A stretch of DNA of 42,347 nucleotides from a virus. This document shows positions 1-37,988 of the stretch, in pieces. A program made the position numbers and the translations under genes. The DNA is taken from IMG/VR virus record IMGVR_UViG_3300028383_000093, positions 1-42,347 of that record. One strand, written 5' to 3'. The notes under the pieces were generated by a model. That model did no database searches and was not told where the DNA came from. It saw only the letters and a list, made by a program, of their open reading frames with translations. Every line of letters starts with the position of its first letter. Position 1 is the stretch's first letter.

Positions 1-895
1 TGAGGTACGTGAACTTGACCTTGTCTCCATTACTTACTTTGCCGTACCGGGAACCATTCCCCGACCGATCGATCCAGTTGTTGTACAGGAGAGCACCCCG
101 AACATGAATCGGTGTCCCCTTCAGGTATATACTACTCGGATCAACCCATTTGTCAATATCCGATACGCCACGCGGGAACGATACATCCTCGGGGGGGAGT
201 GTCTTGAAGTGCCGCTTGAATGTCTGGATCGCTTCCTGTGACTTCTCTTCGGACCCCGAGATAATCACCTTGAAAATCTCTTTCAAGCCCTCACGACACG
301 CCGATGGGGTTGACGACTTGATCGCCTCGATACCCATGATCTTGAGTTTGGGGTCGGAGTACCTGACACCCTCATTATCATGGACATTGAGGATATACCG
401 CTTCTTGGCCGTCCAGATACCACGATCGGCAATCACTTCCCGAGACATTTCCATGCGGTTTTCGTACCCGCCAAACCGATCGTACATACGGGCATACGCA
501 TCGGCGATAACCGGCTCGATCTTCTCGGAGCAGATCGTGTCAAGGAAGTCTATGGGCTTGGACGGCTTGAACCGATCGACCAGATCGCCCATATTGACAT
601 ACAATGAGTCTGTATCAATCGCAATCACATAGTCGACCGAATCAGTCGACAGGATCTTGTTCAGGTACTGGTTCACTGCCTTCTCGGCCCACTGGATCGC
701 CATGCGTCCGGATGCCGTGATCCCCTCGGCCATTGGCATCGAGAAGTACCGAAAGTATTGATTGCCATAGGCACCGTACAGCGAATTCAAGCTAATTTTG
801 ATACTCTGCTCTTTTGTACCAAGATTAAGGACCTTCTTTGAAATATTTTTTCTAAGGGCTAAAAGTTCATCGTCGGTATACTCACTCAATTCCAT
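1..895 (-). CDS. 43: DNA polymerase gp43, C-terminal fragment (43B), cut by window edge
   Basis: Second half of a split family B replicative DNA polymerase. The reverse strand is open from an ATG at 895 to the window edge. The translation begins MELSEYTDDELLALRKNISK, then polymerase motif B (KISLNSLYGAYGN) and motif C (AIDTDSLY), the catalytic Asp pair of the palm. Motif A and the exonuclease lie on the separate upstream gene at 1908-3392. The ATG lies inside the last codons of the intervening endonuclease gene (10-base overlap), with an AGAGG ribosome site 8-9 bases upstream inside that gene, so translation is probably coupled. No polymerase segment looks missing: the end of 43A and the start of 43B join at a fingers helix. 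Known in the family: T4-like Aeromonas phages also have split gp43 polymerases. Inference: the two chains assemble into one enzyme. The C-terminal thumb and clamp-binding tail are outside the window. Confidence 0.93.
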   Translation of the reverse strand, partial: MELSEYTDDELLALRKNISKKVLNLGTKEQSIKISLNSLYGAYGNQYFRYFSMPMAEGITASGRMAIQWAEKAVNQYLNKILSTDSVDYVIAIDTDSLYVNMGDLVDRFKPSKPIDFLDTICSEKIEPVIADAYARMYDRFGGYENRMEMSREVIADRGIWTAKKRYILNVHDNEGVRYSDPKLKIMGIEAIKSSTPSACREGLKEIFKVIISGSEEKSQEAIQTFKRHFKTLPPEDVSFPRGVSDIDKWVDPSSIYLKGTPIHVRGALLYNNWIDRSGNGSRYGKVSNGDKVKFTYL

Positions 896-12917: not shown

Positions 12918-14009
12918 TCACACAGTCTCCTCGTCACTTTGGGCTTCGACATACACCTCTCGCATCATTTGCTTGAGGCGGTCCTTGTCTAGATCCGTGT
13001 CCTCGACCGATTCGACATACGAGTCGATCAGGCCCGGTGTATCGTCCACACTACCAACTCGAGCGTCTTCGGTCAAGTCGACGTTTGCCCCCAAGTACTC
13101 ATCCAGATTCTCGGCCACCTTCAGGTCATGTGCCCCCATGTCATGGAGTGACTGAATAAACTGGTCAAACCGCTTGGGGTCATTGGACCTTGACGTGACA
13201 ATCACCTTGACGTACTTGCCGCTAATGTCCCCGGTTTCAGGACTCGGGACAGAGCCTTCTGGAGAATCGTCGTATTGCAGCTTACAGAACAAGGAGTGTG
13301 GATTGTACACCGGGTAGATAGACCGGGCCTCCGTGTCGATGATATGAAAGCACTTGCGATCATCGGCATCGGCCCATGTGAACTGGGTCTGTGATCCCAG
13401 ATACATGATGTTTCCCTTCACGGAACCTGAGTGGTAATGCCCCGACAGGACTTGCTCGTACCGATCAAATGCCGACGGATCCATCCCATGAGTCGACTTG
13501 ACGCCCCGCATCATGTCAAAGCCTACGATCTCAAAATGACCGGCAAGCCATGTGGCCTTGCACTTTGACTGAATAAACTGGAGGCACTGCTCTTCGTTGT
13601 CTCGGCTGATCCATGGCACGACCCCGATCTTCATCCCCGAGTAGTCGAGTACCTCCGGCTCCTCGATAATATGGATGTTGTTGAGGAAGTGCCCGAGCAT
13701 CTCCTTCAGGGAGTTGAGCGAGTTGGTCGACTTATAGTACACGTCATGGTTACCCGGAATGATATCCATCGTCATCCCAGTATCGCGCATACGCTCAAGG
13801 AACATCTTTCGGGCTTCGTACTGGGTGCGAACCGAGATCGCTTTCCGGTTATCGTACAGGTCACCGAGATGGAGGATCTGACTGATACCTTCCTTCTCGA
13901 CGGTCGGGAAGAAGACCTTCTCGAAGAACTCGCGCTGATTTGCACTCACGGCCTCGGAGCCTCCCCGAGCACCAAAGTGCGTATCGTTCAGGACCGCTAT
14001 TTTGCTCAT
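12918..14009 (-). CDS. 47: Recombination endonuclease subunit gp47 (Mre11/SbcD-like)
   Basis: 363 residues (T4 339). Calcineurin-like phosphoesterase motifs in order: VLNDTHFGARGG, LHLGDLYDNRK, IIPGNHDVYYKS, WLAGHFEI and VLSGHYHSGS, which place the metal-binding Asp/His/Asn residues. It forms the nuclease with gp46. Its start overlaps the Mom-like gene as ATGA. The C-terminal part is acidic, as usual for this subunit. Confidence 0.97.
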   Translation of the reverse strand: MSKIAVLNDTHFGARGGSEAVSANQREFFEKVFFPTVEKEGISQILHLGDLYDNRKAISVRTQYEARKMFLERMRDTGMTMDIIPGNHDVYYKSTNSLNSLKEMLGHFLNNIHIIEEPEVLDYSGMKIGVVPWISRDNEEQCLQFIQSKCKATWLAGHFEIVGFDMMRGVKSTHGMDPSAFDRYEQVLSGHYHSGSVKGNIMYLGSQTQFTWADADDRKCFHIIDTEARSIYPVYNPHSLFCKLQYDDSPEGSVPSPETGDISGKYVKVIVTSRSNDPKRFDQFIQSLHDMGAHDLKVAENLDEYLGANVDLTEDARVGSVDDTPGLIDSYVESVEDTDLDKDRLKQMMREVYVEAQSDEETV

Positions 14010-14605
14010 ATAATTACCCGTGATTTCCAGTATTTTCTATCGGTTTTATTGGTTCCGACGATTAACAGATATCTGACTTTGGCATTCCTTTTCTCTCTAG
14101 TCCACCCTCTTTTTTTAGCCTCTTGGTGTGAGATATTAACTCCTGACTGCCGGGGATGCCTAAGCCTACCCTCTCCGTCCCTGTAAAACCAAGCAGGCGA
14201 ACTGGTTCCTTTCCACTCAAAATTAAGTGCCTTGTAAATAGTACCAGTATGCCCTTCTGTTGTATCTGCAAAAGAGAGAATCCCTTTCACAAGTGGCTTA
14301 TACTCGACAAGCCCCTTTATAGCGCGAGAAACAAACCAAGAGGTTGTATTTTCGGGCAGGTCATCTTGCGTGTATAGTCGATGTAATTCCGTAACCCGAT
14401 CTTTATGCTCAGGACCAAAAACACTTCGTCTTACATTTTCCGAGCATGGTGTTGCAAAAGCACACACTCCGACAAGGGAATCATCTCGATATAGACCCCA
14501 GCACATAGGACCATTGTGGCAGCTTTTGCTGTAGTGATTTTCTCGTATATATGCTTTCCCTATCTTGGATGAGATTTTTTTAACTGATAAATCAACAATG
14601 GCCAT
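14006..14605 (-). CDS. Mom-like GNAT-fold protein, candidate DNA base modifier
   Basis: 199 residues from ATG 14605, which overlaps the gp55 end by 14 bases. The family pattern is clear: AYIRENHYSKSCHNGPMCWG, LVGVCAFATPCS, VTELHRLYTQDDLPENTTSW, ILSFADTTEGHTGTIYKALN. These match the Mom group of GNAT-like proteins; in phage Mu, Mom converts adenine to a carbamoylmethyl form that blocks restriction. Whether this enzyme modifies DNA, and which base, is inference; relatives of unknown activity share the fold. It sits between gp55 and gp47, both conserved neighbours, and is richer in A+T than either, so it looks like an inserted accessory gene kept in the operon by start/stop overlaps. Confidence 0.7.
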   Translation of the reverse strand: MAIVDLSVKKISSKIGKAYIRENHYSKSCHNGPMCWGLYRDDSLVGVCAFATPCSENVRRSVFGPEHKDRVTELHRLYTQDDLPENTTSWFVSRAIKGLVEYKPLVKGILSFADTTEGHTGTIYKALNFEWKGTSSPAWFYRDGEGRLRHPRQSGVNISHQEAKKRGWTREKRNAKVRYLLIVGTNKTDRKYWKSRVII

Positions 14606-15176
14606 CCTTTGGTTCCTGTTCTTGCTCCTGCTCCAGCCGCTTCTGCTCGCGCTCAAAGTCCTTGAGTACTTGATCCCGCACATGGACCTGATCGATGCGC
14701 TCGCGCAGAGAATCGACAAATGCCGCGCTGTCTGATACCACGTGCTGGCTACCACCTTCCTCAAGAAAACCTTCGAGGCCCGACTCTTCCATAAACTTGG
14801 TGCGGATATCGTACTGCCGCTTCTCGCGTTGCAGTCTCCGCAAGAATGCATAGTACGAGATCTGAGTAAAGTATGCAAATGCGTTTGGTGATCCGGTCCG
14901 GGTGGCTGCATCTATGTTATAGTTCTTGACGGCCTTGAGGCAGTTCTCGACGGCGTCCATGACCATCTCTTCTCGGTACGTGTACCGGACAAAGTTGGAC
15001 TTATGAGATAAACCTTCCGCGATCTTGAGGAAGCACTCGGCGATATAGTCAGGTACCTCGGGGATAGGGTCACCTGCCGCATCGGCCTCATTCACTTCCC
15101 TGACATACTCGACTACAGCAGCCGAGAACTCTTTGTTGTTGACATAGTGGTGGGGTGCTCTTCGCTCTACTGGCAT
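14592..15176 (-). CDS. 55: Late-transcription sigma factor gp55
   Basis: 194 residues (T4 185). Matches T4 gp55: HHYVNNKEFSAAVVEYV, LKIAEGLSHKSNFVRYTY, EEMVMDAVENCLKAVKNYNI and PNAFAYFTQISYYAFLRRLQ, a short sigma70 region 2-like protein. It directs host RNA polymerase to TATAAATA late promoters, of which at least seven exact copies occur in this window. A likely promoter is at 15211-15240. The C-terminal tail is an unusual Gln/Glu-rich stretch (EREQKRLEQEQEQEPK). Confidence 0.95.
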   Translation of the reverse strand: MPVERRAPHHYVNNKEFSAAVVEYVREVNEADAAGDPIPEVPDYIAECFLKIAEGLSHKSNFVRYTYREEMVMDAVENCLKAVKNYNIDAATRTGSPNAFAYFTQISYYAFLRRLQREKRQYDIRTKFMEESGLEGFLEEGGSQHVVSDSAAFVDSLRERIDQVHVRDQVLKDFEREQKRLEQEQEQEPKDGHC

Positions 15177-15310: not shown

Positions 15311-15793
15311 TCAGTGATAACTGTTCGAGCCACTCGTCGGGTAGGTCACAGACAGCTTTGACTCAAGATCCTGCTCATCAAGAAAATCATCAATATCCGT
15401 AGAACCTTCTTGGTCGAGTGCCCACCCCTCATGAGCAGACTCATCAGTATCATCATCACCTGCCGTCGATCCCGATGAGATACAGATACGGATATACCGC
15501 TCCTTGGTCCCCTCATCACACTCGACATGCGAGAGTACATGAGTCGGGTTGATAAAGCAGTACGGGTATTTAGACAGGGGTTGCCACTCATGGAACAGGA
15601 ACAGTGTCCGGTCAGTCTTCTCGATGATCTCAACCCTCATGGGTCGGTTCAGGATAATCAGTGCCTCATCAGGATCAAGTTCCGAGGAGTCAACTTCCGA
15701 CGGATCAATCACAATTCCAATGATGTCCTCGCCGCTCGATAGCTTGAAGTGACGAATGTTGATATCTTCGAGTGTCGTTGCTGTTTCGGTCAT
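15311..15793 (-). CDS. Conserved T4-like phage protein, longer Sm-like relative (160 aa)
   Basis: 160 residues: IRHFKLSSGEDIIGIVIDPS followed by ALIILNRPMRVEI, FLFHEWQPLSKYPYCFINP and HVLSHVECDEGTKERYIRI, then an acidic disordered tail. The opening strand pattern equals that of the 101-residue protein at 3490-3795, so the two are probably distant paralogues. Lies between uvsW and gp55, a position where marine T4-like phages keep such a gene. Function unknown. Confidence 0.8.
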   Translation of the reverse strand: MTETATTLEDINIRHFKLSSGEDIIGIVIDPSEVDSSELDPDEALIILNRPMRVEIIEKTDRTLFLFHEWQPLSKYPYCFINPTHVLSHVECDEGTKERYIRICISSGSTAGDDDTDESAHEGWALDQEGSTDIDDFLDEQDLESKLSVTYPTSGSNSYH

Positions 15794-15805
15794 TATTATA
15801 TCCTC

Positions 15806-16135
15806 TCACTCATCCTTTAGTTTGATCTGATTGATCGTGTACTCAAATCGCTCACGTGCATAGATTTTGATCCGCTCGGATGCATGGTTCAGGGTATAGT
15901 TCCTGTAACTGTCACCTATATGTAGGTCATCGGCAATGTCGTACACCTGTGTGGGTCGCCCATCGTCCGACACCCTGAGTCCTCGACCAATCGACTGGAG
16001 AATGCGGATCTGGGACTTGGACGGGGAGGCAAATACGATATTGTGGATGTTCCGAATGTTAATACCCGTGCTGAAACATCCCATACTAGCAGCTATTACC
16101 ACACCTTTTCCGCGTTCAACTTTACTTGGTTTCAT
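15806..16135 (-). CDS. uvsW: UvsW helicase, C-terminal fragment
   Basis: 109 residues carrying the end of helicase domain 2: GVVIAASMGCFSTGINIRNI, HNIVFASPSKSQIRILQSIG and GRGLRVSDDGRP, helicase motifs V and VI with the arginine finger (QSIGRGLR). The ATG at 16135 overlaps the HNH endonuclease stop (TAATG), so it can be made as a separate chain. Helicase motifs I to III are on the upstream fragment (16832-18220). The halves must associate, or be joined by RNA splicing, to give an active helicase. Confidence 0.9.
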   Translation of the reverse strand: MKPSKVERGKGVVIAASMGCFSTGINIRNIHNIVFASPSKSQIRILQSIGRGLRVSDDGRPTQVYDIADDLHIGDSYRNYTLNHASERIKIYARERFEYTINQIKLKDE

Positions 16136-16809
16136 TATTTCTTTCTTCTTTCTTCTCTTGCTTTCCTACGTGCTTCTAGCATCTTTTCTCTCCATACAGG
16201 GTCTGCCCATTTTTCTTTAAGCGCACTTCCATCAGATCCACGAGGTTTTCTCTTAGACATTTTCTCTCGCCACTCTGGATCAGACCATTTTTGTTTTAAT
16301 GATTCACTAGCCTTTTTTCTTTTATTTGGGTCTTTATTAACCAAGTTCATTTTTTGTTTAAACGCGTCACGTTCTTCAGCAGGCATTTTATCCCATCGTT
16401 TTTGAACAACGCGATGTAGTCTTTCTTGTCCCTCAGGGCTATTTCTTTCTGCGATCATAGACTGTCGAATATCTTCACGCTTTTTAGCCCACATTTCTCT
16501 GAAGTGATGGCTAAGTGATTCAGCATGTTTTCTTTTCAACCAGCCATGTAACTTATTGTTCATCCTTTGATTAGTGCTATGGAATTGCATATTCCACGCA
16601 GCAAACACGAGGCCATTATTATTCGGGTGCATTTTCACGAGAAGTAAATGCGCCAAATAATGTTCTTCTGGTGTAAGAGAGCAAATGTTGTCAGGATCAT
16701 CAGTACCACCAATACACTTTGGCACCACATGATGTTTTTCCAAATATCCTTCTAGTACTCTGTTTCTAGCTTTGTTTATTAAATTGTCATATATTTTATG
16801 GTAATTCAT
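16135..16809 (-). CDS. HNH homing endonuclease splitting uvsW
   Basis: 224 residues. The HNH core is at residues 20-54 (YLEKHHVVPKCIGG, then N41 and H50/H54 in DNICSLTPEEHYLAH). The C-terminal two thirds are a basic region with repeated units of the form KWSDPEWREKM (about 165-175 and 190-200), probably DNA-binding. Strongly A+T-rich compared with the helicase halves. It has its own late promoter and a hairpin that should block translation from early read-through RNA. Its stop overlaps the start of the uvsW C-terminal fragment. Whether it is a free-standing gene in a split gene or lies in an intron is not settled. Confidence 0.88.
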   Translation of the reverse strand: MNYHKIYDNLINKARNRVLEGYLEKHHVVPKCIGGTDDPDNICSLTPEEHYLAHLLLVKMHPNNNGLVFAAWNMQFHSTNQRMNNKLHGWLKRKHAESLSHHFREMWAKKREDIRQSMIAERNSPEGQERLHRVVQKRWDKMPAEERDAFKQKMNLVNKDPNKRKKASESLKQKWSDPEWREKMSKRKPRGSDGSALKEKWADPVWREKMLEARRKAREERRKK

Positions 16810-16814
16810 ATATT

Positions 16815-16842
16815 AATACCAGTTTGCCGACTTACTGGTATT
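16815..16842 (-). promoter_or_regulatory. Hairpin that may block early translation of the HNH endonuclease
   Basis: Perfect 9-bp stem (AATACCAGT/ACTGGTATT, loop 10) ending 6 bases before the ATG. Its 5' arm overlaps the late promoter box, so late RNA starting about 16833 lacks that arm. This is the layout T4 uses for late-only translation of some genes, including intron endonucleases. Confidence 0.65.
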
Positions 16843-18220
16843 TATATTTTACTAAAATTGAAGATATAAACGATTCAGATATATCATCATCTATTGTGAC
16901 ATCGACGGCTTTTTTTGATACCTTATTGTTTAACAGTATAATCATGTCGTTAGGAATTTTATATTTTGTATTTCCAAGTGTAATAAATGTATAAAGATAA
17001 TTGTCATGTTGATCCGTGATCTGTCGAATCTCTTCTCGGGTGTCGGTATCGGTCTCACCCGACACATAGAACGCCTTCCTGTCCTGATGTATCGCGTCCC
17101 TCACGGCTTTGAACAGTGGCTTCCCGTGCTTATCGACATATTGGAACAGGAGTAGGGTGTTACCGTCCAGAGAAGCCGTCAGATCAACGATCCAGCGGTT
17201 GCGGGACGCATCCCCCACAAGGAAGTCAATCTCTTCATGATAACTCGATCCTTTGACCTGACGGCGAACCCTCTGCGGGTAGTCAAGGATCTGCATGTTC
17301 ACCTTTAGCTGGGCAAGTGCCCCTGAGTCCATCAGATCACGGGTCGTGGTCACATACCTGAGTGGCCCGAATAACCCCTCAAGGACCAACTGGTTTGTCT
17401 CTGACCCATCAGTGGTACCAGTAGTCCCGATACGATACTCGGTGCCCTCCATCTTCGTGAGGATCGAAGTGAGGGACTTGGCCTTAAAATTATGGGCCTC
17501 ATCACCGATCACGCATCCAAACTGAGAGAACCACTTCTTGGGCATCTGGTAGATCGACTGCCATGTCGAGACCACTACCGGAATTCCAGATACATCGTCC
17601 CGCTCCTGTCCCTGATAGACCCCATGACAGTCGACTGATGGGTTGAAGTGTCGGTCATCTGTCGAGTAATCCTCAAAGTCCGAGATCATCTGGCGGACCA
17701 GTGACGTGGTCGGAACAACGATCAGTACGGGCTTTTGTACATGGTACAGGACATACCGGGTGATCATATAGATGATCAGGGACTTCCCGGACGCCGTGGG
17801 AGAGAGTAGAAGCGCCCGCCGGTGCGTGAGGGCGTACTCGACGGCCTCTCGCTGGTACTCCCTCGGGCTGATCGGGTTACCCCGAGCGGAGAGCGGTAGA
17901 TCGTCGAGATAATCTGTGTCGACTCGATCAGTAGCAATTGGAAGGCCGTTCGTCTCATCGATTTCGATATCATATCCATTCTCTTTGGCAAACGCGCACA
18001 CGTGCGGGAACAGGCCCGCGTACAGGGTGTTGTTTCGGGTGTTGAACAGACGTATCTTCCCATCCCACTTCCGTGCCTTGAACGCGGGCATATATTTGTA
18101 CCCTTCGACATAAAACTCGAATCGCTCGGACAACTCGGCAAGGGTCGAGCGATCGTCGCAATCGATCTGAATGTACACCGAATCCTTCTTTCTGACTCGG
18201 AGGGGAGCAGAGACACTCAT
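16832..18220 (-). CDS. uvsW: UvsW helicase, N-terminal fragment
   Basis: 462 residues from the ATG overlapping the uvsY stop (TAATG); an upstream GTG in frame is less likely. It carries the UvsW N-terminal DNA-binding domain (FYVEGYKYMPAFKARKWDGK), Walker A LLSPTASGKSLIIYMI, DEAH box GDEAHNFKAKS and motif III GTTGTT. UvsW unwinds D-loops and R-loops and moves branches in late replication. Native sequence runs to about REEIRQITDQHDN; then follow about 55 residues (YLYTFITLGNTKYKIPNDMI...) that are A+T-rich and do not look like UvsW, ending at a stop. This foreign tail marks the insertion edge. Helicase motifs V and VI are on 15806-16135. Confidence 0.93.
   Translation of the reverse strand: MSVSAPLRVRKKDSVYIQIDCDDRSTLAELSERFEFYVEGYKYMPAFKARKWDGKIRLFNTRNNTLYAGLFPHVCAFAKENGYDIEIDETNGLPIATDRVDTDYLDDLPLSARGNPISPREYQREAVEYALTHRRALLLSPTASGKSLIIYMITRYVLYHVQKPVLIVVPTTSLVRQMISDFEDYSTDDRHFNPSVDCHGVYQGQERDDVSGIPVVVSTWQSIYQMPKKWFSQFGCVIGDEAHNFKAKSLTSILTKMEGTEYRIGTTGTTDGSETNQLVLEGLFGPLRYVTTTRDLMDSGALAQLKVNMQILDYPQRVRRQVKGSSYHEEIDFLVGDASRNRWIVDLTASLDGNTLLLFQYVDKHGKPLFKAVRDAIHQDRKAFYVSGETDTDTREEIRQITDQHDNYLYTFITLGNTKYKIPNDMIILLNNKVSKKAVDVTIDDDISESFISSILVKYKYQ
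16839..16846 (-). promoter_or_regulatory. T4-type late promoter (TATAAATA) of the HNH endonuclease
   Basis: Exact TATAAATA on the minus strand, 30 bases before the endonuclease start and overlapping the end of the uvsW N-terminal fragment. Confidence 0.75.
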
Positions 18221-18666
18221 TAAATACCTGCCGTGAACTTCTTCCACTCGATCATGTTCTTGATATTTTGGTGACGCCAGCGGATATTGCTCATGATCTC
18301 TTCGAGTACCGAGATCAGTTCCTTGGTGTAATCGATCTGGGCCTGAGCCTTCTGGATATGTGGGTCAGAGTCATAGAACTTGTTCATGTCACCCTTCAGG
18401 ACTTTGAGGCCATCGAGTGGATCGTACGACCACCCACGCGCCTCGATATCCTCACGAGGCATCTTGCCGTTGTAGTGAAGCCACTTGTCTTTCAGGAGGG
18501 TGTTGAATTCCATCTCTCGCCGCTTCAGTTGAAGCCGTGCGACCGACAGCATCTCAAGGTACTTGGAATGAAGGTTGGCTGACTTGCGTGACTCTTCGTC
18601 GAGGTTAAGGTCATCAATCTCCGAGTCACTCTTCCACATCTCTAGTACATCGTCTATCTTCATCAT
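18220..18666 (-). CDS. uvsY: Recombination mediator UvsY
   Basis: 148 residues (T4 137). MKIDDVLEMWKSDSEID, a conserved helix with YLEMLSVARLQLKRREMEFN and the family stretch KWLHYNGKMPREDIEARGWS followed by YDPLDGLKVLKGDMNKFYDS. UvsY loads UvsX recombinase on gp32-coated ssDNA. Coupled to uvsW by TAATG. A late promoter lies 41 bases upstream. Confidence 0.95.
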   Translation of the reverse strand: MMKIDDVLEMWKSDSEIDDLNLDEESRKSANLHSKYLEMLSVARLQLKRREMEFNTLLKDKWLHYNGKMPREDIEARGWSYDPLDGLKVLKGDMNKFYDSDPHIQKAQAQIDYTKELISVLEEIMSNIRWRHQNIKNMIEWKKFTAGI

Positions 18667-18706
18667 ATGCGTTTGCTCTTTCTCTCACTGGTTCGTAATG
18701 TACCTG

Positions 18707-18714
18707 TATTTATA
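18707..18714 (-). promoter_or_regulatory. T4-type late promoter (TATAAATA) before uvsY
   Basis: Exact TATAAATA just after the stop region of the 145-residue gene, 41 bases upstream of uvsY. Confidence 0.75.
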
Positions 18715-18717
18715 CCC

Positions 18718-19155
18718 CTATACTTTGACCAGTCTGTAATTGACCTTAAATCCTAGATCTTCTTCTTTACCTAGTCGGTATCCATGCGATTTTGCAAATC
18801 GTCCAATCAATCTGCTATAAAGTCGGTCTCTAGAGTTACCATTTGTCGGCGATTTTTCTGCAAAAAACCTAATTTCTTCCGGATTTTCATTTTCAGCAAA
18901 ATTACTCATAATATCAACAACGGTTGAGAAAACTTTAACCTCGTCTCCTTTACCAGTAATGGAAAGATCATCGTCTACTGCAAATATCATATTCCAGTAG
19001 TTTTCATAAACGCGGAAAAAAGTTACTACCAATTCTTTACCATTTATATTAGATTTATATTCCAATTGATCATTATTACTTGACACCATTTTCCACCGGG
19101 CAGGTCGATCGAACATTTCATCGATCTGGGTCTTGAATTGTTTGAATGATTTCAT
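18718..19155 (-). CDS. Hypothetical T4-like phage protein (145 aa)
   Basis: MKSFKQFKTQIDEMFDRPAR, a beta-rich middle (LEYKSNINGKELVVTFF, WNMIFAVDDDLSITGKGDE) and a helical end (SRDRLYSRLIGRFAKSHGY). The pattern is shared with small proteins seen in many T4-like genomes that end in a fungus of the form LY.R...FA...GY; function unknown. More A+T-rich than the flanking genes, so possibly a recent arrival. Confidence 0.75.
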   Translation of the reverse strand: MKSFKQFKTQIDEMFDRPARWKMVSSNNDQLEYKSNINGKELVVTFFRVYENYWNMIFAVDDDLSITGKGDEVKVFSTVVDIMSNFAENENPEEIRFFAEKSPTNGNSRDRLYSRLIGRFAKSHGYRLGKEEDLGFKVNYRLVKV

Positions 19156-19161
19156 GACGTT

Positions 19162-19686
19162 TTACTGCACCTTAAAATACGAGTACTTGAAAGTGACTGT
19201 CCCGACCAGATACTCGATGTTCGTGGCCGTCGCATCAAAATCAAGGGTCGAGAGTGAGGTGGGGAACGCATCGACAAAGTGAATCTCCCGCGATACGTTG
19301 TTATGCGAGTTAAGGACAAGGAGTGTCATATCGCGGGTCTTGTTCTGGTTGTCGGCCTCTGGCTCAAGTGCCATACCCAGAATCCAGTCATGGATCTCCG
19401 TATAATTGGCGAGGTCTTCATCGATCAGGAACGTGGCCGAGAAGTCCTCGTACGCCACTTTGTCGCCCGGCATCTCGATATTTCGCTGGGGTGTCGAGAG
19501 GACAGACGTAGAGACCGACACCTCGGGGATCGATGCCGACTGGACATTGAACTGGGCATTCGGGTACTTGAGCGAGTCGATCAGGAGTCGAAACCCCGTC
19601 GGGGACGCAAAGGTACTGTTTTCGCGAAGCGTCGATGTCCGGGTCTCCGAGAAATCGACATTCAAATCATACGGAGGGGGTGCCAT
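19162..19686 (-). CDS. Tail-tube-like virion protein (174 aa)
   Basis: MAPPPYDLNVDFSETRTSTL, then SPTGFRLLIDSLKYPNAQFN, TFLIDEDLANYTEIHDWILG, LLVLNSHNNVSREIHFVDAF and TFKYSYFKVQ. The FLIDEDLANYTEIHDWI and FVDAFPTSL pattern is that of the gp19 tail-tube fold, to which gp19 at 29230-29757 and baseplate tube proteins such as gp54 belong. It is a structural tail protein placed between gp23 and uvsY, as in marine T4-like phages. Whether it is gp3, a tube initiator or a second tube protein cannot be decided here. Confidence 0.75.
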   Translation of the reverse strand: MAPPPYDLNVDFSETRTSTLRENSTFASPTGFRLLIDSLKYPNAQFNVQSASIPEVSVSTSVLSTPQRNIEMPGDKVAYEDFSATFLIDEDLANYTEIHDWILGMALEPEADNQNKTRDMTLLVLNSHNNVSREIHFVDAFPTSLSTLDFDATATNIEYLVGTVTFKYSYFKVQ

Positions 19687-19688
19687 GG

Positions 19689-20048
19689 CTACTTATTCTC
19701 TCCTTTATCATCATGCTGTGAAACATACCGATGATCGTTGATCACCCGCTCGATATGCAGGTACGGGATTCGTTCGTTCGGCACATACCGCCAGTAGTGG
19801 GTGATCTCAGTCGATCCGCGTTCGGTGCGGTAGATCCCAAACACGGTACGGGAGAATCCGATCTTCACGACGATCGCCTCTTCCCCGTCAAGGATCACCT
19901 TGTCACCCTCGGCAAAGTCTGACGAGAACTTAAAGGCCATCCCCCGAACGATTCGACCGGCAGTGTCCTTGATCCAGAGTGACAGGATCAGTGCCACGGC
20001 TCCCGAGACAAACGGAGTGATCCACTCGTTGATGTGATCTTGTAACAT
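19689..20048 (-). CDS. Mini-MscS-like membrane protein (119 aa)
   Basis: One transmembrane helix (about 13-27, FVSGAVALILSLWI) followed by a small domain like the beta-domain of MscS channels: FSSDFAEGDKVILDGEEAIV, KIGFSRTVFGIY and YWRYVPNERIPYL, i.e. the EGD.V, T and VPN signatures. It is far shorter than MscS (286 residues in E. coli) and lacks the sensor paddles and C-terminal cage, so a working channel is doubtful. The late box is only 9 bases before the ATG. Confidence 0.7.
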   Translation of the reverse strand: MLQDHINEWITPFVSGAVALILSLWIKDTAGRIVRGMAFKFSSDFAEGDKVILDGEEAIVVKIGFSRTVFGIYRTERGSTEITHYWRYVPNERIPYLHIERVINDHRYVSQHDDKGENK

Positions 20049-20056
20049 AGTACCCC

Positions 20057-20064
20057 TATTTATA
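20057..20064 (-). promoter_or_regulatory. T4-type late promoter (TATAAATA), very close to a start codon
   Basis: Exact TATAAATA 9 bases before the ATG of the mini-MscS gene. Transcription would start within a few bases of the ATG, giving an almost leaderless RNA. Divergent from the plus-strand promoter at 20076. Confidence 0.65.
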
Positions 20065-20075
20065 CTCTGGGCGGG

Positions 20076-20104
20076 TTGACAGGCCAGAGACCCGTAAGTA
20101 TACT
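20076..20104 (+). promoter_or_regulatory. Early promoter cassette 1
   Basis: TTGACA, 17 bases, TATACT, then ACACGCGTTGTTTAGTTGAGAG. The -35 box lies in a CGGGT/ACCCG inverted repeat (20072-20094). The downstream initial sequence is shared by all four plus-strand promoters. Confidence 0.8.
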
Positions 20105-20143
20105 ACACGCGTTGTTTAGTTGAGAGAAAAAAAGGTAACCGAA

Positions 20144-20401
20144 ATGTCATACACATACACGACTCGCAGTAGCACTGATGCCGCACTTGCCCGGACGATT
20201 GAAAAAGTCGAGCTTGGGAATATGAACTGGGGTGCGATACTTCAAATCCTGAATGATCGGGCTTCTTATCTTCGCCAAAATATCAGGCCCCTTCCGGGTT
20301 ACGCACCCGAGTATGATCGTCGAGCCAGAATGGCTGCTGAACTGGAAGAACGGCTCGACCAGATTCGTGAGATGAAGGCCATTTACTCCGATCGCTCTTG
20401 A
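20144..20401 (+). CDS. Early hypothetical protein (85 aa), plus-strand island
   Basis: ATG at 20144 with AAAGG 8 bases before. MSYTYTTRSSTDAALARTIE, helical and charged, ending LEERLDQIREMKAIYSDRS. First of four single genes on the plus strand, each with its own strong promoter, in the gap between gp23 and the uvsY unit. The stop codon is part of the next promoter's -35 box. No family recognised; early host-takeover function is a guess from the promoter type. Confidence 0.75.
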   Translation: MSYTYTTRSSTDAALARTIEKVELGNMNWGAILQILNDRASYLRQNIRPLPGYAPEYDRRARMAAELEERLDQIREMKAIYSDRS

Positions 20402-20426
20402 CACAAGTTGCTTCAGGAAGTACACT
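20398..20426 (+). promoter_or_regulatory. Early promoter cassette 2
   Basis: TTGACA, 17 bases, TACACT. The TGA in the -35 box is the stop codon of the preceding gene; a short CTTG/CAAG repeat spans it. Followed by the shared GTGTTGGTTAGTTGAGAG. Confidence 0.8.
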
Positions 20427-20463
20427 ACATGTGTTGGTTAGTTGAGAGATCGAGGTAAGAAAG

Positions 20464-20745
20464 ATGAGTATCAAGAACCGTCGCCAGCTTGAGAAGGTCC
20501 TGAGTCAGAACGGGCTGTCTGAAGGTATTCACATCGATTCGTACAAGGAAATAGAAATCGCGGTGTTTGAGGACTCTGAAGTGGATCGGGACCTCAGTGA
20601 GGATGCCAAGGACGCTGTCCTGAATGCCCTGCGAGAGTACGGCAACTGGGGCGGATTCCGCACGGGATACGGCGGGTGGATCCTCCAGCAGAACTACCGC
20701 GACGCGGGTGACTGGAACGATCGGTCGAGTCGTCACCACTACTGA
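20464..20745 (+). CDS. Early hypothetical protein (93 aa), plus-strand island
   Basis: MSIKNRRQLEKVLSQNGLSE, a middle strand region YKEIEIAVFEDSEVD, and a Gly/Trp-rich end (REYGNWGGFRTGYGGWILQQ). GAGG lies 8 bases before the ATG. Flanked by promoter cassettes 2 and 3. The Gly-Trp-Tyr end is distinctive; function unknown. Confidence 0.75.
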   Translation: MSIKNRRQLEKVLSQNGLSEGIHIDSYKEIEIAVFEDSEVDRDLSEDAKDAVLNALREYGNWGGFRTGYGGWILQQNYRDAGDWNDRSSRHHY

Positions 20746-20753
20746 TGCCAAAA

Positions 20754-20779
20754 GACGGGGGTTGACACATCTCCCCGTC
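20754..20779 (+). terminator. Hairpin after island gene 2, enclosing the next -35 box
   Basis: Stem GACGGGG/CCCCGTC (7 bp), loop of 12 bases that contains TTGACA, followed by ATTTAG. Terminator-like but with a poor U-run; overlaps promoter cassette 3. Confidence 0.65.
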
Positions 20780-20791
20780 ATTTAGTACACT
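20762..20791 (+). promoter_or_regulatory. Early promoter cassette 3
   Basis: TTGACA, 18 bases, TACACT, followed by the shared ACGTGTTGGTTG. The -35 box is the loop of the hairpin at 20754-20779. Confidence 0.8.
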
Positions 20792-20843
20792 ATACGTGTT
20801 GGTTGATAAGAGACAGAGACACACAGAGAGAGAGGTACTCGGT

Positions 20844-21182
20844 ATGACGACTTCCACAAACATCAAGAACCTGCCCGAAAACGCCAAGTACATGACTATG
20901 CTCTGCTACTCGGATGCCAAGCCGTATGTCGTGGTCAAGGAGACTGCCAAGACCAAGGTTCTGTCACCGGTGCTGGTTGAGAAGGATCCTGACTGGAAGC
21001 CCGAGATGCATCCGGGTGGTTTCGCCGCCCACTGCTCCAATCAGAGTTCCCAGACATGGCTATACGATGGAGTTGATGAAGAGATGCAGATCCGGGTCTA
21101 CAAGACCAAGCGCGGCTGGGGCTGGAAAGGCACACGGTTCGCCGAAGATCGGGCCACCTACTTCTACGACTACAACTTCTGA
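20844..21182 (+). CDS. Early hypothetical protein (112 aa), plus-strand island
   Basis: ATG at 20844 (AGAGG 8 bases upstream). MTTSTNIKNLPENAKYMTML, VVVKETAKTKVLSPVLVEKD, HPGGFAAHCSNQSSQTWLYD and a Trp/Lys/Arg end (KRGWGWKGTRFAEDRATYFY). Beta-rich pattern with aromatic residues. No family recognised. Flanked by cassettes 3 and 4. Confidence 0.75.
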   Translation: MTTSTNIKNLPENAKYMTMLCYSDAKPYVVVKETAKTKVLSPVLVEKDPDWKPEMHPGGFAAHCSNQSSQTWLYDGVDEEMQIRVYKTKRGWGWKGTRFAEDRATYFYDYNF

Positions 21183-21194
21183 TATCGAAGAGTT

Positions 21195-21224
21195 GAGCCG
21201 GGCTTGCATTTCCCCGGCTCTTTT
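21195..21224 (+). terminator. Rho-independent terminator after island gene 3, enclosing the next -35 box
   Basis: Stem GAGCCGGG/CCCGGCTC (8 bp), loop of 10 bases holding the TTGCAT -35 box, followed by TTTT. A clear terminator fused with the next promoter. Confidence 0.8.
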
Positions 21225-21232
21225 GCTACACT
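21204..21232 (+). promoter_or_regulatory. Early promoter cassette 4
   Basis: TTGCAT, 17 bases, TACACT, followed by GTCCGTGTTGGTTGGG. The weakest -35 of the four, placed in the loop of the terminator at 21195-21224. Confidence 0.7.
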
Positions 21233-21276
21233 GTCCGTGTTGGTTGGGAAAATACAGAGATAAAGAGGCAATAGAC

Positions 21277-21531
21277 ATGACTAACTACGAAAACACCGAT
21301 CTGGCTAACTATGACGACATGATCGCCGAGGCCGAGACCATGTATGAGCACCTGCTCGAATGGTACGAGCAGTTCACCCTGATCGACCCCGCAAAGGTGT
21401 CGACCCAAGAAGCTCATCGCTGCAAAGACAGCCTCCAGAGCATCGTCAGTGTGATCGACTCCCTTCGCAGGGCGCGGTACTCAAACGAACTGTACAACCG
21501 GACTGGCGAAGACGTGGTGTCGGCGCGGTAA
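21277..21531 (+). CDS. Early hypothetical protein (84 aa), plus-strand island
   Basis: MTNYENTDLANYDDMIAEAE, acidic helix then KDSLQSIVSVIDSLRRARYS. AGAGG lies 8 bases before the ATG. Last gene of the plus-strand island; it runs towards the gp23 terminator and converges with gp23. No family recognised. Confidence 0.75.
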   Translation: MTNYENTDLANYDDMIAEAETMYEHLLEWYEQFTLIDPAKVSTQEAHRCKDSLQSIVSVIDSLRRARYSNELYNRTGEDVVSAR

Positions 21532-21557
21532 CGCCGTGTATGTTTACGATGCAGAAT

Positions 21558-21581
21558 AAAAAAGGGGACCCGAAGGTCCCC
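21558..21581 (-). terminator. gp23 terminator with UUCG tetraloop
   Basis: Minus strand GGGGACC, loop TTCG, GGTCCCC, then TTTTTT. A near-ideal terminator 28 bases after the major capsid gene. The stem also faces the plus-strand island and may stop that transcript weakly. Confidence 0.92.
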
Positions 21582-21608
21582 TCTGGGTTCGTAGATTTTG
21601 ATCTACGT

Positions 21609-22994
21609 TTAGCCCTCGCCGAGGATCGAATCCACGCGGAAGATACGATAATACTCGTTGCCGCGAACCGGACCGACATTGTCCACCGGGGTGGAGTTGC
21701 CAGTCGAGGTACCGACGAAGGGATTTGCGATCATCCCATACCGAGTCTTGAAACCGATCTTCGGCTGGAACGTCTGCTCACCCACGGCACGGACCATTGT
21801 CAGCGGGACGTACGGGCAGTAGAACAGACCAGCGTCGTACGGGTTCGAGCCGCGATAACCGACGGTCAGATAGTTGACCGTGGCGTACGGATCGATGTAC
21901 ACCTTGATGCCGCTTGACAGGGTACCCACGAAGGTGTTGCCCGTGTCGTCGACCTGAAGGTTGCTGTTCGAGGACAGCGCCGGGTAGTTGTTCAGCATAC
22001 CAGTCGCCGAAAGCGCCGCAGCGACGTCTGACGAGCAGAGGATGAAGTTACCCTTGCCCCGACGAGTCTCACGGGCGATGACGTTGGCTTCACGCTGAAG
22101 CTGGACCAGCATACCCTGATACTTCTCTGAACTCCACCGACCGTCGGCGTCAACATCCAGATCAAACACACCGGGAGTGGTCAGATCACCCTGCTGGCAA
22201 CCCAGCTTGGCGCGGGAGTTGATCGTCCGAACCATCTCACGGTTGATCTCGGCGAGAATCTCGGCAGACAGGATGTTGGCAAGCTCGGACTCGGCATCCA
22301 GACCATGAATGCTCTTGAGGTCCTGAGCAAGCTCCATCGTGTACTCAGCCTTCAGCGCACGGGTCTTGGCCGTGACTGTCGCCCGCTCGATCGTGAATGA
22401 CATCTCGGCGAACTCGTTGGCCGAACTATCGCCAAGGGCCTCACCGTCAGCGGTCGTCATGCCCGAACCGAAACCGAAGTTATCGGCGACCTGATCGAAC
22501 GGATCTGAGTCAACAGCACCACCAGTACCGGGGAGCGAGGACGGTGAACCGGAATGCGTACCCGCCTTCTCGTTCTGGGTCGTCCCATTGAACGAAGAAG
22601 ATGAGTAGTCGGTCTCGGCCTCGTTGAACAGCGCCTCGGTCGAATCAAGACGGCTGGCCGCGTCGTTGTACCGGCTCTTCATGGCAAAGATAAGGCCAGT
22701 GGGGCCGGACATCGGCTGCACACCCGCGATATCATATGCGATGAGGTTCGGCATCGAACGGCGGACAAGCGAGATCAGAATCGGATCCCAGTTGTTGATA
22801 CCAGCGCCGGTCGAGTTGGTCGGCGCGTCCTCTGAGAGGAACTGCTCCTGACCACGCTGCTCGGCAAGCTCGCGCTCCGTGTTCTCCAGAACCTGAGCAA
22901 TGACGCCCTTCTTGTAGGTATCGTTGACCTCGGGAGCCTCCTTGGCCTCAAGGACCGGCTTCCACTTGCTAATTGTGTTTTCGTTCGTAAACAT
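21609..22994 (-). CDS. 23: Major capsid protein gp23
   Basis: 461 residues (T4 521 before cleavage). Typical gp23 segments: INNWDPILISLVRRSMPNLI, AYDIAGVQPMSGPTGLIFAM, FTIERATVTAKTRALKAEYT and MELAQDLKSIHGLDAESELA. The N-terminal FLSEDAP may be the prohead protease cleavage site (pattern hydrophobic-x-Glu), although Asp after the cut is unusual. Strong AGGAG ribosome site and a strong terminator fit very high expression. Forms the hexamers of the head shell. Confidence 0.97.
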   Translation of the reverse strand: MFTNENTISKWKPVLEAKEAPEVNDTYKKGVIAQVLENTERELAEQRGQEQFLSEDAPTNSTGAGINNWDPILISLVRRSMPNLIAYDIAGVQPMSGPTGLIFAMKSRYNDAASRLDSTEALFNEAETDYSSSSFNGTTQNEKAGTHSGSPSSLPGTGGAVDSDPFDQVADNFGFGSGMTTADGEALGDSSANEFAEMSFTIERATVTAKTRALKAEYTMELAQDLKSIHGLDAESELANILSAEILAEINREMVRTINSRAKLGCQQGDLTTPGVFDLDVDADGRWSSEKYQGMLVQLQREANVIARETRRGKGNFILCSSDVAAALSATGMLNNYPALSSNSNLQVDDTGNTFVGTLSSGIKVYIDPYATVNYLTVGYRGSNPYDAGLFYCPYVPLTMVRAVGEQTFQPKIGFKTRYGMIANPFVGTSTGNSTPVDNVGPVRGNEYYRIFRVDSILGEG

Positions 22995-24351: not shown

Positions 24352-26055
24352 TTAGAATGAATTGAGAAGATCTTTGAAAAACTTCATCTGAGCATCGGCC
24401 ACCCGCGACTCAGGAATCGTACGAATCTCTTTGTTGTACTGGTCGATCTGCTGGGCCTTGATTGTTCCGTTATCGACAAAGTACTCGACCCCCTCCATAA
24501 TACCGTTGACGAATGCCTCGGGAGCCGATGGATCCTGCACCACATCGACGGTCGCAAGCATAAAGTCGTCTTTGACGTATGTCTTGCCGCCGCGCTCTTG
24601 CAATGAACCCATCCCACGAGTCGACACGCCAAGCTGGACCTCACCTTCCATCAACCCCTTGACGATCTGGCCCATCGGCGTATCAAGTACCTGTGCCCGA
24701 CCAATCACATTGTCGCCGTCCCAGCGGAGTTCAGTGATCCGGTGAGATACCCGATCAAGGTTGACGGTGGGGGAGTTGCCTGTCCAGAATGTGTATTGCT
24801 GTTTGCCGTCACCATCCCTGACCAAAAAGTTGGAGTTGTCTACAGTAAGACAGTACACTTTATCGTCATAGTTATGCAATTTTTCAATCTTCAAAAATCT
24901 TTTATCAATGTACACTCCACTGGTCTGGATAAACCGCGCAAAGTATAGACGATTTTTGTTTGATTTCTTAATGATTCGACCAGCAAATTTATAATCTTTT
25001 TCTGTATCTACGTAAAATTTACGTGTCGCAATTCCGGCTATTGATGATACGGCCATCAATTCATCGATAAGGCGTTCTGATGTTGAAAACATGTCACACC
25101 GAACATACTTTTTATTGACAGTGCCTCGACCATCACCATCTACAAATCCCTCAAGAAGATGACTTGCGCTTTTGGCATCAAGAGCATTAATAACGTGGGG
25201 ATCAATATACTTTTCAGAGCATGTTCCAAATTGAGTCAAATAATTTGCCAATCCCATGTCAGATATTACAAAAATATGATGGGGATTTTTGCTCGATTTT
25301 TTATCCCGTACAGTATACTTTAACCCCATTCGATCTAGGAGGTCTTTGATTTTATCTGCAATAATTCCATCGTTTTGGTGCAAGTATACATGATAGTTAT
25401 TAGGGCGGTCTTTTCTTTTTTGGACACAACCCTCGGCGAGCCAGAATCCCAAAAAGTAACAAAAATCGTCAATATCATACTCTTTATTGCCAACTTCTAT
25501 TACTCGGTTACCTTCAATTTCTGGCACACCATTGGAAGACTTGACAATCTTGTGGTGACGATACTCGTTTTCAAACAGGTCTTGGGCCTCAATGTACTCA
25601 TACTTCCCTTTTCGGTTTATTGTCAAAAACCGATGATTTGGGGTGACTACGGTATCAATTGTTCGCCCTTTGAAGTGATACATTTCACCCTGATAAGGTT
25701 CTTTATATGTACCCTTGACTTCTTGGTATTCCACAAACCCCTTTTTGTTAAGTGTGTATACCTTTTCGCCAATTTCAATGTCTTTGATTTTTTTCCATCC
25801 AGACTTTGTAAGGGCTTCGGTGTTTTCATGAAAACACTCTGGATGACCAAGTTCCCCGACCGCACGACCCTTAGATACCTGAGTCTCATTATACTTGTTG
25901 ACTGCATTCTCAAGTACATCACGCGGGTACACGCGACCGTTCCGGTTGGCCATCTCGGCCTGTGCAAAGATACCCTCGATCATATGCCGACGCTGCCCAT
26001 CAACATCCTCGGCCAGATACTCAAGTTCTTCGGTGTGTTCGGTGATCAGTTTCAT
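24352..26055 (-). CDS. 21: Prohead core protease gp21 interrupted by an in-frame intein
   Basis: 567 residues. Residues 1-73 and 428-567 make a 213-residue gp21 (T4 212): MIEGIFAQAEMANRNGRVYP, VGELGHPE with the catalytic His71, then SPTVNLDRVSHRITELRWDG and LGVSTRGMGSL with the catalytic Ser. The intein occupies residues 74-427 and must splice out before the protease can fold. The insertion point lies 3 residues after the His, the most conserved part of the enzyme. gp21 digests the prohead core and trims gp23 in head maturation. No frameshift is visible. Confidence 0.95.
   Translation of the reverse strand: MKLITEHTEELEYLAEDVDGQRRHMIEGIFAQAEMANRNGRVYPRDVLENAVNKYNETQVSKGRAVGELGHPECFHENTEALTKSGWKKIKDIEIGEKVYTLNKKGFVEYQEVKGTYKEPYQGEMYHFKGRTIDTVVTPNHRFLTINRKGKYEYIEAQDLFENEYRHHKIVKSSNGVPEIEGNRVIEVGNKEYDIDDFCYFLGFWLAEGCVQKRKDRPNNYHVYLHQNDGIIADKIKDLLDRMGLKYTVRDKKSSKNPHHIFVISDMGLANYLTQFGTCSEKYIDPHVINALDAKSASHLLEGFVDGDGRGTVNKKYVRCDMFSTSERLIDELMAVSSIAGIATRKFYVDTEKDYKFAGRIIKKSNKNRLYFARFIQTSGVYIDKRFLKIEKLHNYDDKVYCLTVDNSNFLVRDGDGKQQYTFWTGNSPTVNLDRVSHRITELRWDGDNVIGRAQVLDTPMGQIVKGLMEGEVQLGVSTRGMGSLQERGGKTYVKDDFMLATVDVVQDPSAPEAFVNGIMEGVEYFVDNGTIKAQQIDQYNKEIRTIPESRVADAQMKFFKDLLNSF
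24775..25836 (-). mobile_element. Intein with LAGLIDADG endonuclease inside gp21
   Basis: 354 residues. Begins with Cys74 (CFHENTEALTKSGWKKIKDI, block A); block B is TVVTPNHRFLTI; the two LAGLIDADG-type motifs are FLGFWLAEG and LLEGFVDGDG; block F is KVYCLTVDNSNFLVRD. It ends TFWTGN before Ser428. The usual penultimate His is replaced by Gly, as in some known inteins. A+T-rich compared with the gp21 exteins, fitting recent homing. Confidence 0.95.
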
Positions 26056-37695: not shown

Positions 37696-37988
37696 TACAG
37701 GTCATACCCCTTGTAGAAAATCCCGTCCATCTTACTCGGCGTAATTCCCATCTGTTTGGTCATCTTGACAAACCAGTCGGCATACCGGTACACTTTCTCG
37801 CCGTACTGCCATTCGATTTCGGCAACCGACCGATCAGAGTCAGGGAGTGTGGCAATCGCCGCATCAACATCTCCCAAGATCCCCGCGTCATTAAACGCCA
37901 GCCGGATCTGACGCATCGTCAGGGGCTTTCGCTTGAGGTGATACTTCTTGATACCCTTTTCGATTTCTTTCTGTGTCTTCTTGGCCAT
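37695..37988 (-). CDS. Hypothetical protein (97 aa) before gp13
   Basis: MAKKTQKEIEKGIKKYHLKR, KPLTMRQIRLAFNDAGILGD and VAEIEWQYGEKVYRYADWFV. Basic N-terminus, helical. It sits between the adhesin-like gene and gp13, overlapping gp13 by TAATG. Small tail/neck or fibre-assembly role possible by position only. Confidence 0.72.
   Translation of the reverse strand: MAKKTQKEIEKGIKKYHLKRKPLTMRQIRLAFNDAGILGDVDAAIATLPDSDRSVAEIEWQYGEKVYRYADWFVKMTKQMGITPSKMDGIFYKGYDL

Follow-up and report, generated by a model that had tools for sequence, protein, structure and literature searches.

A turnover island of small genes behind early-type promoters next to gp23 of a T4-like phage

The region between a tail-side gene and gp23 of the T4-like myovirus investigated in this study is, in our judgement, likely a hot spot for accessory genes, in which small genes located behind copies of an early-type promoter are gained and lost singly or in small groups. 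The window, by which we refer to the entire analysed virus record of 42,347 bases, is a fragment of the late-gene region of such a phage, an assignment that follows from the presence of homologues of gp23, gp18, gp21, UvsY and UvsW, of the head scaffold protein and of an SbcC-like (gp46-type) protein, and that is accompanied by late promoters of the sequence TATAAATA. Its gp23 shares about 58% identity with the nearest named relatives, which are found in Methylophilales phage Melnitz and phage C48C1. The TATAAATA octamer occurs eight times, compared to 0.57 copies expected in all, and seven of the eight reside on the minus strand together with the late genes, whereas the genes of the island are placed on the plus strand. 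Since nearly all of these late promoters thus face the other way, it is reasonable to regard the island genes as putatively early. The island and its borders comprise the following features:

20057..20064, minus strand: left island border, T4-type late promoter TATAAATA belonging to the adjacent late gene (19689-20048)
20076..20117, plus strand: promoter 1, early-type, TTGACA-17-TATACT-N4-GCGTTGTTT
20144-20401, plus strand: gene c1, 85 residues, with a homologue of about 40% identity in contig L145
20398..20439, plus strand: promoter 2, early-type, TTGACA-17-TACACT-N4-GTGTTGGTT, with the TGA stop of c1 inside TTGACA
20464-20745, plus strand: gene c2, 93 residues, no relative found
20754..20779, plus strand: hairpin after c2, GACGGGGG-ttgacacatc-TCCCCGTC, whose loop holds the -35 of promoter 3, followed by a weak U-tract (ATTTAG)
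20762..20804, plus strand: promoter 3, early-type, TTGACA-18-TACACT-N4-GTGTTGGTT
20844-21182, plus strand: gene c3, 112 residues, PHROG 19789, with conserved GGFAAHCxNQ and DYNF
21195..21220, plus strand: hairpin after c3 with the weak -35 of promoter 4, TTGCAT, in its loop, GAGCCGGG-cttgcatttc-CCCGGCTC, followed by TTTTGC
21204..21245, plus strand: promoter 4, early-type, TTGCAT-17-TACACT-N4-GTGTTGGTT
21277-21531, plus strand: gene c4, 84 residues, with a homologue (35%) adjoining gp23 in contigs L067 and L169
21561..21584, minus strand: right island border, terminator hairpin of gp23 with a minus-strand U-tract

An earlier note on this DNA had described four small plus-strand genes of 84–112 residues and the location of the c1 stop codon within the TTGACA of promoter 2; both descriptions are confirmed, as is the existence of the four genes with their promoters. 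The same note considered the promoters as near-identical, which holds for the -10 hexamer TAYACT and the element downstream of it, both present at all four sites. It does not hold throughout, because the -35 of promoter 4 matches the consensus at only three of six positions and is thus poor, and promoter 1 carries GCGTTGTTT, which agrees with the element at seven of nine positions. With this variant included, the core TAYACT-N4-GTGTTGGTT is found four times in the window, in all cases at c1–c4. The 19-nucleotide pattern TACACTNNNNGTGTTGGTT was detected in three exact copies and one with three mismatches, and its reversed control in none. Further copies, for which the earlier note had proposed a genome-wide search, were not encountered at up to three mismatches anywhere else in the record, the rest of which holds mainly late and structural genes. 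Combinations of TTGACA and TACACT at a spacing of 15–19 bases were found three times with 0.01 expected, at promoters 2 and 3 and at a site at position 37765 that is devoid of the downstream element.

The turnover of genes at this location is directly observed in close relatives, which we define as contigs whose gp23 is 83–88% identical, and which amount to a handful that was compared to the one window. While the window contains c1-c2-c3-c4, the island holds c1-c3 in L145, c3-Y-c4' in L169 and c3-X-Y-c4' in L067 and L181, and it is empty in L066 and L068. The borders persist in occupied and empty relatives alike, with an exact TATAAATA at the left side of L145, L169/L181 and L068 and a closely similar octamer there in L066, and with a gp23 terminator of the GGGGACC-CGAA-GGTCCCC type at the right side of the relatives examined there. 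L145 and L169 differ in the content of their islands despite flanks that are 94–96% identical, and L169 and L181, which are 98% identical, differ by precisely one gene, X, the gain or loss of which is bounded by the hairpin after c3 on one side and the Y start codon on the other. The swapping of genes one at a time, as envisaged in the earlier note, is thus borne out by presence and absence in near-identical surroundings. In L145, the stop codon of c1 still overlaps with a TTGACA, which there serves c3 instead of c2. The breakpoints observed so far are found at intergenic hairpins and start codons and not demonstrably inside promoters. Among wider relatives, 35 of 56 junctions between gp23 and the tail gene are nearly empty, measuring no more than 190 bp, and the other 21 hold 370–4930 bp of varied content.

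The promoter core is not confined to the window. It precedes c3 in L145 and L169/L181, and five copies were identified in contig G001, an early region of another T4-like phage, where they share the strand with the genes of UvsX, a DnaB-like helicase and NrdA/B. Over the 30 bases that start with the -10, promoter 2 agrees with one of the G001 copies at 27 positions and promoter 3 with another at 26, although they serve different genes in different phages, compared to 16 of 30 between the c1 promoters and 22 of 30 between the c3 promoters of the window and L145, which occupy orthologous positions. In the 24 bases upstream of the -10 there is no conservation beyond the -35. These comparisons indicate that it is the promoter core, and not a stem-loop, that is portable, and there is good support for an island of early-gene turnover with such a mobile core. 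In a collection of viral contigs, the pattern TTGACN-17/18-TANACT-N5-TGTTGGTT was found in 26 stretches, nearly all with the 17-base spacing, compared to three when a scrambled element was used with the offset unchanged, which corresponds to an approximately ninefold enrichment. The exact 19-nucleotide core without a -35 was rejected as a query, since its 60 matching stretches are nearly all due to chance and few contain a -35. The TGTTGGTT promoter was absent from the eight named phages that were searched, including T4, Melnitz, phiN3 and Itty13, and none of the literature matches listed linked the element to phage promoters. A scan of genome contigs returned 20 mixed matches from which the host cannot be interpreted. 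One contig binned as a Nanoarchaeia genome, JAQUVJ010000002.1 (L188/L195), carries three copies and is probably a mis-binned phage contig. Assuming the usual distance to the start site, TGTTGGTT would span about -1 to +7. We tentatively consider, with more doubt than conviction, that TTGACN-17-TANACT-N5-TGTTGGTT might constitute an unnamed class of phage early promoters, whose start-site or initial-transcript element (about -1 to +7) would be common to unrelated phages and act in both early expression and gene exchange, in the latter as a short anchor.

In our preferred reading, the hot spot lies between the late promoter of the tail-side gene and the terminator of gp23 and would be read against the late genes. 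Each island gene would be placed behind the phage's own early promoter, consisting of sigma70-type -35 and -10 hexamers and the start-site region GTGTTGGTT, and the host RNA polymerase would transcribe these genes right after infection. Genes may be gained or lost singly or a few together by recombination or deletion at short intergenic stretches, and an incoming unit could bring its own promoter and would therefore be expressed wherever it lands. Any benefit might concern host range or takeover. Where space is tight, the next promoter overlaps with the preceding stop codon (promoter 2) or terminator-like end hairpin (promoters 3 and 4), which yields a compact unit of gene end and gene start. 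An own promoter is not required, since X, Y and c4' in L067 and Y and c4' in L169 are not preceded by one of this type. The description of the island as a series of single-gene units is consequently accurate for the window, where each gene has its promoter, and does not extend to the genes following c3 in these relatives. The same arrangement, with one promoter followed by several genes, together with the poor -35 of promoter 4, would also fit a conventional co-transcribed accessory operon with weak or unused downstream promoter copies and leaky terminators. We regard this as unlikely, because promoters 2–4 retain the -10 and GTGTTGGTT without change, so that both appear to be under selection.

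The hairpins surrounding the -35 hexamers deserve separate consideration, as the earlier note had taken them as the defining unit. Our search was limited to stems overlapping the -35, with significance estimated by dinucleotide shuffles. As claimed, the -35 of promoters 3 and 4 is enclosed by a hairpin that follows the preceding gene, in both cases with a stem of 8 bp (p=0.007 and p=0.005), and the repeats at promoters 1 and 2 are unremarkable (p=0.06 and p=0.38). These two hairpins are probably real. They are located after c2 and c3 and have short U-tracts; termination is a candidate function. Neither was reported in a terminator scan that accepts loops of up to eight bases, with both loops comprising ten, and a search of Rfam over 15600-22000 returned no matches. 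Among about 30 further promoters of the same type, a comparable stem was found only at L184 (p=0.018, uncorrected for multiple testing), from which it follows that the hairpins do not belong to the promoter type as such. The -35 hairpin is not conserved in the promoter copies of L145, L169/L181 and G001, and in L067 the hairpin after c3, GACGGGGC-TTCG-GCCCCGTC, contains no -35 in its loop. A conserved -35 hairpin as the defining unit is thus not supported, with strong stems in the window restricted to promoters 3 and 4 and the upstream sequence not conserved, and the arrangement at the two junctions is best read as the end of a gene that overlaps with the next promoter. The strong stems with a -35 in their loop might alternatively suggest a regulatory switch, in which the -35 is masked by the structure or the next promoter is occluded by transcription reading through from upstream. 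We consider this highly improbable, since sigma70 recognizes double-stranded DNA, with the hairpin expected in the upstream RNA rather than in the promoter, since the other copies do not conserve the structure, and since overlap for compactness accounts for it.

The described organization invites comparison with the promoter-early stem-loop (PeSL) cassettes of T4-type phages, which are composites of promoter and terminator (Arbiol 2010; Comeau 2014, cited in PMC4503421) and whose features we take here from the paper titles, the second-hand account in PMC4503421 and general knowledge. Judged by this account, the island resembles PeSLs in a promoter that is by sequence sigma70-like and early, preceding a non-core gene, in its junction, at two of the gene borders, with a terminator-like stem-loop, and in its location within a stretch flanked by core genes where genes are shuffled among close relatives. 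It differs in that the stem-loop accompanies only two of four promoters, with weak U-tracts, and is missing from nearly all other copies. Conservation is seen in the promoter core, start site included, and not in the stem-bearing upstream half. The resemblance noted previously concerns how the elements work, and since promoter and stem-loop are not conserved together, as the available account of PeSLs implies, we have not classified the island as a member. That it might nevertheless consist of true PeSL cassettes, with promoter and stem-loop as one mobile unit and genes exchanged by homologous recombination between copies, is conceivable, if on balance improbable. This possibility gains from the two composite hairpin-promoters in the window, from gene swaps in near-identical backgrounds and from the junction in L145, where the overlap of stop codon and TTGACA was kept in front of a different gene, suggesting a crossover inside the promoter. 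It is weakened by the unrelated upstream halves of the copies and by the one finely mapped single-gene indel, in L169/L181, which contains an ordinary terminator hairpin and lacks a promoter, so that among the few close genomes one junction is suggestive of recombination at element copies and the other is not. In the light of the same partial account, two properties that are joined in the PeSL concept come apart in the island, where the promoter core travels and the stem-loop does not.

Other known systems share single aspects of the island. Hyperplastic regions of T4-like phages, as found in Sinorhizobium phage phiN3, where six opposite-strand genes separate gp23 from the tail tube gene, and at segD after gene 23 of T4, contain small non-core genes on the opposite strand at the same position; they differ by containing other genes and no copy of the island promoter. 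Early promoters of T4 are strong, of the sigma70-type and conserved beyond the -35 and -10 (PMC2988021). The promoters of the island share this extended conservation, which in their case concerns the start-site element TGTTGGTT, a pattern that is absent from T4. The series of empty, two-, three- and four-gene islands, some with flanks of 94–98% identity, offers a natural system for following the gain and loss of single early genes in T4-like phages, and the promoter signature provides a searchable tag for early genes of uncultured phages.

With respect to the encoded proteins, only c3 belongs to a known phage family, the uncharacterised PHROG 19789, as reflected in its profile match, the conserved motif and the predicted fold. 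Its other members, small proteins of phages such as Itty13, CRP-901/902, Blastoid and fHe-Yen8-01, reside in unrelated phages infecting Pseudomonas, Roseobacter, Bacillus and Yersinia. Where such members were inspected in viral contigs, their upstream sequences differed. Between the window and L145, c3 shows a dN of 0.12 and a dS of 0.80, and the resulting ratio of about 0.15 demonstrates, at the level of sequence comparison, that it is under purifying selection. The protein is predicted to form a beta-rich domain (pLDDT 88.5), which matched no structure in the PDB and otherwise only uncharacterised phage proteins. For c1 and c4, one distant set of homologues each was reached, solely through the neighbouring loci, and no relatives of c1, c2 or c4 were confirmed in scans of viral contigs or found in named phages. 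Searches of Pfam and PADLOC with c1–c4 and of PDB sequences with c3 returned nothing above noise, and no family or fold match of the four proteins conveys a function. The role in host takeover that the earlier note proposed for them gains no support from these results and is not contradicted by them.

Several observations concern the surroundings of the island. The prohead protease gp21 (24352-26055, minus strand) contains an intein that includes an endonuclease domain of the LAGLIDADG type. UvsW (15806-18247, minus strand) is split between its N- and C-terminal parts by a gene of 224 residues (16135-16809), which appears HNH-like by eye and has no Pfam match, and the same protein is the product of one continuous gene of 524 residues in L169. 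Adjoining UvsY, relatives contain a gene of 149 residues of PHROG 3636, annotated as 'DNA binding protein' (202-651, minus strand, in L145; 3554-4003, plus strand, in L169), the place of which is taken in the window by an unrelated gene of 145 residues (18718-19155). Finally, a domain of the Mom family (PF25680, DNA modification) is found in the protein encoded at 14006-14911 on the minus strand of this T4-like phage.
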